Assembly: GCF_900188065.1 (NCBI RefSeq) | Contig: NZ_FZNQ01000002.1 | Span: 1 to 64,000, forward strand | DNA length: 64,000 nt | Origin: Halorubrum vacuolatum | Lineage (GTDB): Archaea; Halobacteriota; Halobacteria; Halobacteriales; Haloferacaceae | Direction: 5' to 3' | Shown here: positions 31,925-37,155 of the stretch, one piece after another | Layout: each line of letters opens with the position of its first letter | How positions within the stretch are numbered: position 1 is the first letter of the stretch | Program-made: the position numbers and the translations under genes | The notes under the pieces: generated by a model | The model's database searches: none | What the model was told of the DNA's origin: nothing | Seen by the model: the letters and a program-made list of their open reading frames with translations, nothing else

Positions 31925-31998
31925 ACATCTACTGACACAAATGCGCTATATAAAGCCTGTGTCGTCGGCTTTAGGTGGCGGTTTCCCGTCACACCCGT

Positions 31999-32742
31999 AT
32001 GGACAAACAGGCGGTTCGTGAGCTGATCTGGGACGCCTTGGAGGAGCGTGGGGAGGCCCGCTTTCCGTTTCCACCCCATGGCCGGATCCCGAACTTCGCG
32101 GGCGCGAAGGCGGCCCGCGACCGGCTCGTCGAAACGAGGCCATGGCGGGCCGCCGAGACGTTGAAGTGCAATCCGGACGCCCCACAGCTCCCCGTACGGC
32201 GTGCGGCGCTGCGGGCCGGCAAGGTCGTCTATATGGCCCAGCCGCGGCTTCGTGACCCCGATCCGTTCCTCGAACTCGATCCGGCCGTCGTGACGGACAT
32301 CGACGAGGCGACGACCGTCTCCGGCGTCTCGAAACACGGCGTGCCGGTCGCCCCCGAAGATGTCCCCCAGATCGATCTCGTCGTGGCCGGGTCCGTCGCG
32401 GTGACGACTGACGGCGTCCGTCTCGGCAAGGGTGAGGGCTACAGCGACCTCGAGTGGGCCGTCCTCCGTGAACTCGATGCCGTCGACGACGACACGGTGT
32501 TGGCAACGACGGTTCACGAGTTACAGGTCCTCGACGGCCCAGCCTCCCCGTTTCCGGCGGATGAAACCCAACCGAACCCGGACCCACACGACGTCCCGAT
32601 CGACATCGTCGCACCGCCGGATGGGCTCCGGCACACGGAGACGCCGTACCCGCGTCCGGTGGGCGTCGACTGGGACCTGCTTGAGGAGAAGCGACTCGGT
32701 GAGATCCCGGTGTTGGCGGCGCGTGCACCACCGACGGAGTGA
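31999..32742 (+). CDS. 5-formyltetrahydrofolate cyclo-ligase
   Basis: A 247-residue MTHFS-type enzyme that converts 5-formyl-THF and ATP to 5,10-methenyl-THF. The ATP/phosphate-binding motif LGKGEGYSDLE is present, as is the N-terminal KxxxR region (MDKQAVRELIWDALEE). The length exceeds bacterial enzymes (about 190) but fits archaeal homologues. Start MDKQ is used, eight codons inside the open frame. It restores folate lost as futile 5-formyl-THF. Confidence 0.9.
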   Translation: MDKQAVRELIWDALEERGEARFPFPPHGRIPNFAGAKAARDRLVETRPWRAAETLKCNPDAPQLPVRRAALRAGKVVYMAQPRLRDPDPFLELDPAVVTDIDEATTVSGVSKHGVPVAPEDVPQIDLVVAGSVAVTTDGVRLGKGEGYSDLEWAVLRELDAVDDDTVLATTVHELQVLDGPASPFPADETQPNPDPHDVPIDIVAPPDGLRHTETPYPRPVGVDWDLLEEKRLGEIPVLAARAPPTE

Positions 32743-32841: not shown

Positions 32842-34023
32842 ATGTCGGATCGTTGGTTGTACGCGTGGGGGCTCGGGTCGGTCGCGTTCGGTGGCGCGTC
32901 GCTCATCATCCCGCTGTACGTCGTCGCGCTCGGCGGGACGGCGACGACGCTCGGGGTCCTCGCCGGCGTGGCGGCGCTCGTCGGCGTCCCGGGTGCGCTC
33001 GTCTTCGGCCGGATCGCCGACCAAACGGGCCGCCGACGGGTGCTCGTGCTCGCGGCGCTCGCGAGTGCGGCGGCGGCGCTCGCGGTGGTCCCGTTCACCG
33101 AACGCATCGCCGTCGTGATCCTCGCCAACGGGATCGTCTGGTTCGCGTTCGCCGCGGCGACGCCGGTGGTGACGCTGCTCGCGGTCGTGGGCGCACCCGA
33201 GCACGCATGGAGCGAGCGTATCGGCGAACTGAACAAGTACCAGGGGGTCGGCTGGGCGGTGGGGCTGCTGCTCGGGGCGATCTGGACCGCCGTCGCGATC
33301 CGGACGATCGGGACGAGCGCGCTCGAGGGCTTCCTGCTCGTACTCGCGGTCATGGCGGCTGCGTCGCTCCTCGCGGGCCTTCGGCTGCTTCCGCCGGATC
33401 CCGATCCCGACACGGCGGAGGGATCCGTGTCAGCCCGACGGCTCGGGCGGGCGCTTCGTCGGGCCGACCGGTTCAGCGTTCGGACGGCGACGTTCCCGTT
33501 CACGCCCGCACGGATGGACGTTAGACGGCTCCGCCCGCGGCGGATCGCCAATCGGTTCACCCCGGAATTGGCGATCTACTTCCTCGCGGTGACGAGCTTT
33601 TTCACCGGCTTTTCGGCCTTCTTCGCGCCGTTGCCCGCGTATCTCACCGACATCGGGATCGGCTCGGACGGCGTGTTCGTTCTCTATCTCGTCAGCAGCG
33701 TCGCCGCTGCGGTCTTCTTCGAGCGCGCCGGGCGGTTGAGCGCGAAACACGATACGGTCACCCTGCAGGCGGCCGGGCTCACCGTTCGAGCGCTCGCGCT
33801 CCCCGGCGTGGCCGTCGTCGGGGCGCTCTTCGGGATGTCGACGGGCGGGTTCGCGGGCCTCGCCGTCGTCTTCGCCGTGATCGGACTCACGTGGGCGGTC
33901 ATCGCGGTGACGGCCGGGACGCTCGTTACACGGCTGGCTCCACCGGCGATCCGTGGGGAGGCCCTCGGGGTGTATGCGGCGCTCAGTGCGCTGGCGGGCG
34001 GCATCGGAAGCGTCCTCGGCTGA
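32842..34023 (+). CDS. MFS transporter interrupted by TGA before the last helix
   Basis: A 393-residue frame encoding about eleven membrane helices. The first half has the MFS loop GRIADQTGRRRVLV after helix 2, and the second half the related GRLSAKHDTVT. The frame ends ...GGIGSVLG then TGA at 34021-34023. Translation of the same frame past the stop gives an obvious final helix and basic tail, so a full-length protein would be about 436 residues. One G-to-T change (GGA to TGA) would explain it. Likely a recently inactivated or C-terminally truncated drug/sugar exporter; a sequencing error is also possible. Confidence 0.8.
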   Translation: MSDRWLYAWGLGSVAFGGASLIIPLYVVALGGTATTLGVLAGVAALVGVPGALVFGRIADQTGRRRVLVLAALASAAAALAVVPFTERIAVVILANGIVWFAFAAATPVVTLLAVVGAPEHAWSERIGELNKYQGVGWAVGLLLGAIWTAVAIRTIGTSALEGFLLVLAVMAAASLLAGLRLLPPDPDPDTAEGSVSARRLGRALRRADRFSVRTATFPFTPARMDVRRLRPRRIANRFTPELAIYFLAVTSFFTGFSAFFAPLPAYLTDIGIGSDGVFVLYLVSSVAAAVFFERAGRLSAKHDTVTLQAAGLTVRALALPGVAVVGALFGMSTGGFAGLAVVFAVIGLTWAVIAVTAGTLVTRLAPPAIRGEALGVYAALSALAGGIGSVLG

Positions 34024-34152
34024 TGGGTGGCGGCGACGAGCTACGGGATCGGCTTCGGCGTCGCGGGCCTCCTCGTCCTCCTCGGCGCGGCAATCCTCCT
34101 CCTGCTCCGACGGCGAACGGACCGACGGGACGTCGCCTCGACGGCTCTCTGA
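34024..34152 (+). pseudogene. Orphaned C-terminal helix of the MFS gene
   Basis: In the frame of the upstream transporter, 42 codons follow the TGA and end at a second TGA (34150-34152). They encode WVAATSYGIGFGVAG, then a Leu-rich segment and the RRRTDRRD basic tail, which looks exactly like transmembrane helix 12 with its cytoplasmic end. No start codon precedes it. Confidence 0.8.
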
Positions 34153-34284: not shown

Positions 34285-35610
34285 ATGGACGAGGAGGGTC
34301 GGGAGTACTACGTCATCAGCGACCTGCATATCGGTGGGGACGAACAGTTGGAGGAGGTCGAGTTCCTCGATGAACTTCTCGAGTTTTTGGACCGATTCGA
34401 AGGGACCGACGACGACGTGGAGATCGTCATCAACGGGGACGCCTTCGGCCTCTGGGAGTTCACGACCGTCGAGGGCACGGAGAAACTCGACGTCTTGGAG
34501 GAGACGTACCCGGAGCTGTTCGAGACGTTCCGTCGCGTCGGCGAGGACGTGCAGATCACGTTGCTGCCGGGCAACCACGACCACGAACTCGCCGCCTATG
34601 AGGAGTACGTCGATCGACTGGCGGCGTACAACATCGATCTCGTCCAGGAGCCGTCGATCACCCGGCCGATCGGTGATCGGGAGATCCACTTCGAACACGG
34701 CCATCAACACGACCCGAACAACCGCATCGATGACTGGGGGAGCCCGCATGCGACACCGCTCGGCTACTTTTATAACACACTCGTGACCAGCCGGGCGGGT
34801 CGGCTCTCGGACCGCGGTCGGTACAACTGGTTGAAGGACGTCCAGGCGGTGACGCCGACCGAACGGATGCCGATCTGGCTCGTCTCGAAGTACTTCTACC
34901 GGGAGATGAATCCCGTCTTGCGGTACGCGCTCGTCCCGTTCCTGTTGTTTTTCAACATCAGCATCCTGCTCGCGCTGCTCGCGGCGGCCGACATCGCCGG
35001 GATCTGGTCGATGCCGGTCGAGCGAACGACAGCGTTCCTCGGACAGTTCGGAACCGCGGGCACCGCCGTCTGGTTCCTGCTCGCGATCAACGTCGTCGTC
35101 ACAGGGGTCATCCTGCTCGTCGCGATCCCGCTGTATTTCATCAGACGCGACGTCCGGAAGACGATCGAGCGCTTCGGCGTCCTCGAAACGTCGCTGACCG
35201 TCGACGCCGAAGGCCCGTACCAGCCGGCCGCCCGGGAGGTCTTCGAGGAGAACCCCGACGCCGTGATCTACTGTTACGGGCACACCCACCGACCGCTCGT
35301 CCGTGACATCGAGGGTGGCGTGATGGTGAACACCGGCACGTGGCTGAAACGGCTCCACCGTCGTGATGGGGCCATCGGCATATTGCCGCCGGTGTTTTAT
35401 CCGTCCTATCAACTCGCGGCGGTACGGATCGCCGAGACGGCCGATGGGATCGTCGTCGAATACGAGGCTGAACGGAAGCCCAGCCCGGCGACCGAGGAGC
35501 TGACCCGCACGGAGCGGTTTTTCACCGTCGGTCGCGAGCCCGAGCCCGACCTCCCCGAGCGTGTGGTGATCGACCCGGAGACCGGCGAGGCGACGTCGCC
35601 GTCGGCGTAG
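34285..35610 (+). CDS. Membrane-bound metallophosphoesterase with helical hairpin inserted in the catalytic domain
   Basis: A 441-residue calcineurin-like phosphoesterase. Metal motifs are D13-x-H15 (SDLHIG), G51-D52, G96-N-H-D99 and H138-G-H140 in the N-terminal part, and G332-H-T-H335 near the C-terminus. Two transmembrane helices (about 213-235 and 262-285) lie between them, so the domain is split by a membrane hairpin. UDP-diacylglucosamine hydrolase- or Mre11-like substrates cannot be assigned. A TTTTACC element sits about 30 bp before the ATG used. Confidence 0.85.
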   Translation: MDEEGREYYVISDLHIGGDEQLEEVEFLDELLEFLDRFEGTDDDVEIVINGDAFGLWEFTTVEGTEKLDVLEETYPELFETFRRVGEDVQITLLPGNHDHELAAYEEYVDRLAAYNIDLVQEPSITRPIGDREIHFEHGHQHDPNNRIDDWGSPHATPLGYFYNTLVTSRAGRLSDRGRYNWLKDVQAVTPTERMPIWLVSKYFYREMNPVLRYALVPFLLFFNISILLALLAAADIAGIWSMPVERTTAFLGQFGTAGTAVWFLLAINVVVTGVILLVAIPLYFIRRDVRKTIERFGVLETSLTVDAEGPYQPAAREVFEENPDAVIYCYGHTHRPLVRDIEGGVMVNTGTWLKRLHRRDGAIGILPPVFYPSYQLAAVRIAETADGIVVEYEAERKPSPATEELTRTERFFTVGREPEPDLPERVVIDPETGEATSPSA

Positions 35611-36060: not shown

Positions 36061-37155
36061 TCACCGAACGAGCGGCATGTTGTAGCTCGTCTCCTCGGCC
36101 ATCACGAACTCCCACGTCGCCTCGCATGCACACGAGACCTGCTCGAAGACAGACGGGTCCTGCCGGAGGTCGAAGTCCTTGATCGCCGTCTGCACCCGGT
36201 CGTCACACTCGCCGCAGTTGTGTGCGCCCCGTTCGGAGCCGTGCCCGACGGGGTCGGAGACGACGATGGCGTCGACGTGGGCCGTCTCCTCGAGGACGTG
36301 TGCGACCGACCAGAGCCACGGCGGCCGGTAGCCGCCCTCGAAGAAGAGCTCGTCGACCATCGTGTACCGCTGGACGTTACATGGGTTCATCGAGACGGTG
36401 TGACAGCCGTCGACGGCCGCACAGCGTTCGATGGAGTCGATCATGTCGGCTGCGGCCTCCGGCTCCGAGAGGAAGGGGGGTTTCATCAGGAGATACGCCT
36501 TCACCCCAACGTCGGCGTCGTGTTCGTCGTCGGCGACGGCGGCCTCCGCGCAGGCGTCCTCGAAGTCGGCGAAATCGAAGTACTTGTTCACACAGTCGCG
36601 GCGGACGCGGTCGGTCGCGGTCTCCAACCCGACCGCGACGTCCGTCGCGAGCCCGTGGGCAGCGAAGTCCGCGAGCTTCCCGCGGTCGACGAAGTCGGGC
36701 AACGATTCGACGACGATCCGGTCGCGGTCCGCGAACGTCTCGGCGATCGACTTGCGGGTCTCCGCGGGCACCTCGCGCTCGTCGAGGAAGGAGCCGGAGG
36801 TGTAGATCTTGATCAGCTCGGCGGGCCCGTCGGCGTGCTCGCGCTCGTGGTCGAGACACACCTCGATCTGTTGACGGAGCGCCTCGTGGCTGACGCTGCC
36901 ACCTTCGACGGATTCGGCGACGTAGCCGCACATCGTACAGCCGCCGGCGCGGGCCCAGCGACAGCCGCCGGTGTTCAAGATGATCGTGAGCGAGTTCACG
37001 ACGCCGTCGGGCGTGTTGTCCTCGTCGATCCAGACGCGGGTGGGCTGGGTCGGGTCGTACGTCTCGGTCCGTTCCGCGCGGATGTCACGCATCACCGCGT
37101 TGTGTGCGTCCATCCCGCGCCCCTGCTCGTAGGCGTCGGGGCTCGGCTTGCTCAT
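36061..37155 (-). CDS. Archaeosine biosynthesis radical SAM protein RaSEA
   Basis: A 364-residue radical SAM enzyme. The cluster Cys are C65, C73 and C76 (GGCRWARAGGCTMCGY), the wide spacing typical of this family rather than CxxxCxxC. Additional Cys near the C-terminus (HNCGECD, SCACEA) may bind another metal. RaSEA works with ArcS to convert preQ0-lysine-modified tRNA position 15 into archaeosine. The start MSKPSPDAYE fits. It is divergent from priS. Confidence 0.92.
   Translation of the reverse strand: MSKPSPDAYEQGRGMDAHNAVMRDIRAERTETYDPTQPTRVWIDEDNTPDGVVNSLTIILNTGGCRWARAGGCTMCGYVAESVEGGSVSHEALRQQIEVCLDHEREHADGPAELIKIYTSGSFLDEREVPAETRKSIAETFADRDRIVVESLPDFVDRGKLADFAAHGLATDVAVGLETATDRVRRDCVNKYFDFADFEDACAEAAVADDEHDADVGVKAYLLMKPPFLSEPEAAADMIDSIERCAAVDGCHTVSMNPCNVQRYTMVDELFFEGGYRPPWLWSVAHVLEETAHVDAIVVSDPVGHGSERGAHNCGECDDRVQTAIKDFDLRQDPSVFEQVSCACEATWEFVMAEETSYNMPLVR

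Follow-up and report, generated by a model that had tools for sequence, protein, structure and literature searches.

The closest described systems to the gene studied here are the DHA1-type MFS exporters YajR of E. coli (PDB 3wdo) and NorA of S. aureus (9b3k, 28vj) and, much nearer in sequence, the haloarchaeal MFS_1 orthologues. A profile search found YajR as the only solved structure, and both exporters were among the top fold matches of the haloarchaeal protein, with which they have the 12-helix fold in common although they are only 13-18% identical to it. That the haloarchaeal transporter would also be an exporter, like YajR and NorA, is a guess from this likeness in the modelled fold. The orthologues, for example those of Halorubrum aquaticum (L036) and H. 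cibi (L032), are 68-69% identical along the gene, and this is the identity of even the nearest intact orthologue. They have the helices and the glycine-rich end of helix 11 that are seen in the gene in the window, by which we mean the whole stretch of 64,000 nucleotides that was analysed, but in the orthologues the glycine codon is translated and the protein ends after helix 12, whereas the window gene has a stop after residue 393 (Table 1). The explanation that we prefer is that this Halorubrum species carries a dispensable MFS transporter gene which was probably hit recently by a nonsense mutation.

Table 1. Coordinates of the disrupted transporter gene, its neighbours and another disrupted gene on this contig
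Feature	Position	Strand	Evidence
5-formyltetrahydrofolate cyclo-ligase family, upstream neighbour	31975..32742	+	Pfam PF01812 2.2e-22
Truncated MFS transporter ORF, 393 aa, helices 1-10 and most of helix 11	32842..34023	+	ORF call, Pfam MFS_1 5e-25, 12-helix model
Premature TGA at invariant glycine codon	34021..34023	+	GGN in 26/26 aligned orthologues; no other stop there in family search
Untranslated 3' part: helix 11 end, helix 12, basic tail, original stop TGA 34150-34152	34024..34152	+	Orthologue alignment, coding score, no decay
In-frame GTG 3 bases past stop; possible but unsupported restart codon	34027..34029	+	Sequence; reinitiation spacing from PMC10666635
Calcineurin-like phosphoesterase with membrane helices, downstream neighbour	34288..35610	+	Pfam PF00149 1.2e-11
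Transducer TAG	L105:6196-6198 = G000:C51:230196-230198, outside window		

The 393-residue ORF matched the Pfam MFS_1 model (PF07690) with 88.6 bits (5e-25), above the curated cut-off of 33.4. Our analysis confirms that, as the preliminary description had stated, TGA 34021-34023 terminates the gene that begins at 32842 and that its reading frame extends a further 42 codons, WVAATSYGIGFGVAGLLVLLGAAILLLLRRRTDRRDVASTAL, up to the TGA at 34150-34152. The peptide encoded past 34023 reads SYGIGFGVAGLL... and matches helix 12 of all orthologues in the alignment. The coding score of this tail is 0.47 bits per codon versus 0.476 for the genes of the contig, and GC at the three codon positions is the same in the tail as in the body. 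Because the coding score is gene-like and the codon-position GC is body-like, the tail truly belongs to the gene as its 3' end and does not stay open by chance. An AlphaFold2 model built on the read-through frame, with the TGA read as Gly (pLDDT 85.7, pTM 0.83), has the 12-helix MFS fold, in which residues 368-397 form helix 11 and residues 401-435 form helix 12. The earlier statement that the stop removes helix 12 is borne out by the model and the alignment but has to be corrected in one respect, which is that the stop, at residue 394, comes before helix 11 is complete, so that this helix loses its last four residues as well. The twelve helices of an MFS transporter, in two six-helix halves, are present in the read-through frame and not in the ORF as written; the window gene belongs to the MFS by descent, and its product is truncated.

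Twenty-six homologues, 21 from Halorubrum genomes and five others, were collected by a genus search and a genome scan and were aligned across the stop. The position of the TGA codon is a glycine codon, GGN, in 26/26 of these orthologues, and in three of them (L003, L005, and L020, where L003 is the same locus as L036 of H. aquaticum) it is GGA, which supports the proposal made in the preliminary description that a single change turned GGA into TGA. Natural ends at this position in the orthologues had been named there as the observation that would speak against a broken gene; none of the 26 ends there and all continue through helix 12. A family search in 170 genomes, 96 of which had a match, found no stop at MFS residue 394 in any other genome, and the window alone has one. 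Five other family matches that contain one TGA were considered as candidates for the same stop and were rejected, as four of these TGAs are terminal stops after helix 12 and the fifth match is free of stops as far as query residue 429. Further alleles of the species were sought with an exact DNA pattern in viral contigs, where there was no match, and one scan of genome contigs returned no close strain. These alignments also bear on whether the truncated protein, with its 11 complete or nearly complete helices, still transports. The MFS_1 match ends at residue 389, which leaves the domain nearly whole without the tail, and the body shows no decay. However, no family member naturally ends here, helix 12 is kept and hydrophobic in all family members, and six residues from G394 to V412, namely, G394, A397, F405, A408, G409, and V412, were invariant in a ten-sequence alignment. 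We consider a working 11-helix transporter improbable.

The remainder of the frame is undamaged, and this counts against a nonsense mutation because it is what would be seen in a functional or a very young allele. The root-to-tip length of the window branch is 1.127 versus 1.11-1.235 for its sisters, which shows no acceleration, and the similarity of the tail to outgroups is 0.574 versus 0.526-0.602 for the intact sisters. The terminal branch of the window is 0.24 substitutions per site long. Since a long unconstrained period on such a branch should show in 32 codons and none is seen, the change looks young, at least by this rough reasoning, and from the sequence comparison the stop mutation would appear to be recent. 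The same observations, an otherwise undamaged gene and an undecayed tail, would be expected if the glycine codon were real and the TGA a wrong base call, for which one substitution suffices, and the assembly is a draft of 72 contigs. On the other hand, single-base substitution errors are rare in a polished consensus, and because the gene is dispensable in the genus, as shown below, a real mutation would be readily tolerated. A consensus error deserves some weight and is unlikely, and we infer that the TGA base is real.

A dedicated tRNA or synthetase for selenocysteine or Pyl-type recoding of UGA was not found, as neither tRNA-Sec (RF01852), for which the near-hits were ordinary tRNAs, nor PylS (TIGR02367) gave a match over the cut-off. 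TGA ends 70 of the 111 long genes of the contig, which does not fit a genome-wide reassignment of UGA. It had been expected from the preliminary description that neither selenocysteine nor any other recoding of TGA would be involved, and this agrees with our results that TGA is an ordinary stop here. These results argue against a full product made by UGA read-through, as does a review of archaeal recoding in which stop redefinition is treated as selenocysteine and pyrrolysine insertion (PMC8211752). Alternatively, a restart at GTG 34027 would give a separate 41-residue helix-12 peptide. Haloferax ribosomes reinitiate at start codons that lie between about -8 and +6 nt from the stop (PMC10666635), and the in-frame GTG at +3 nt has this spacing, which is easily met by chance because a start-like codon so near a stop is not rare. 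The conserved tail would fit either read-through or restart, but the arrangement is seen in no orthologue, and of all the explanations we give this one the least credence. It is even harder to believe that a transporter made as two chains, an 11-helix piece of 393 residues and a GTG-started peptide of 41 residues (or made as a small read-through fraction), is still working. If either kind of product were shown, it would be a membrane protein that is, as far as is known, unusual among haloarchaea. Positive evidence for read-through, for a working 11-helix protein or for a restart at GTG 34027 was not found. What is seen here is an ordinary nonsense event or a base-call error and not unusual decoding, and among the three options that had been offered earlier, a broken gene, an 11-helix protein or read-through, the evidence favours the newly broken gene.

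The base rate of broken genes was examined by a coding-potential scan because a region comparison with G005, G007, and G001 was uninformative owing to short synteny. The scan covered 293 stops on the window's contig and 293 stops in G001. After inspection, two breaks on the window's contig were convincing, namely, the MFS TGA and an in-frame TAG that splits a HAMP/MCP-signal transducer inside its signalling domain, and none of the 293 stops in G001 was; with two breaks versus none, the numbers are too small to set the window genome apart. A separate observation from G000 is that L118 (C20, near 14.6 kb) has twelve tRNA genes on one strand within about 3 kb, a cluster that may represent a tRNA array like those of viruses or plasmids.

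A near-full-length copy of the MFS gene is absent in 30 of the 51 other Halorubrum genomes, some of those 30 being incomplete drafts. The closest relative as judged by the protein encoded at 36064-37155 is G035 (97%; the next is 92%), and in this genome (C41, L157) ~80 bases separate the cyclo-ligase gene from the metallophosphoesterase gene, and no transporter lies between the two. The sister clade has the transporter at another place, directly adjoining the homologue of 36064-37155. The absence of the gene at the G035 site is either a loss in G035 or a gain in the lineage of the window. In G046 (L095, 1403-1477) the first 17 MFS codons are fused to a short stretch resembling the start of helix 12, and intact genes have a similar VAFG-coding motif at both of the places that are joined in this remnant, which looks like the product of an internal deletion. 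G037 has kept 55 MFS-like residues with 56% identity, which may be what is left of the MFS gene or of a paralogue. Since the transporter gene is missing or fragmented in other Halorubrum genomes, it is dispensable. The metallophosphoesterase encoded at 34288-35610 is itself present in only 4 of the 51 other Halorubrum genomes and therefore the insertion that adjoins the conserved gene at 36064-37155 is patchy.

We propose that the invariant glycine codon mutated to TGA, most simply by a G to T change in GGA, so that translation would break off four residues short of the end of helix 11 and no helix 12 would be made; a protein without helix 12 would be expected to misfold or to be degraded. Relative to its orthologues the gene has a premature stop that is followed by homologous coding sequence, which is one mark of a nonsense pseudogene. 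It is also like an ordinary nonsense pseudogene in having a single in-frame stop in an intact frame and in being dispensable and lost or fragmented in relatives, but it differs from one in that the stop stands at 90% of the length of the gene. Because of this position we can only infer loss of function, and the truncated transporter is most likely non-functional. A nonsense mutation thus ranks first among the explanations, followed by a consensus error, then by an 11-helix protein and last by read-through or restart. The MFS gene should be annotated as disrupted and not as a complete 11-helix transporter, and the finding has little importance beyond annotation. It also adds one more case in which a single transporter has been lost repeatedly in a genus of haloarchaea.
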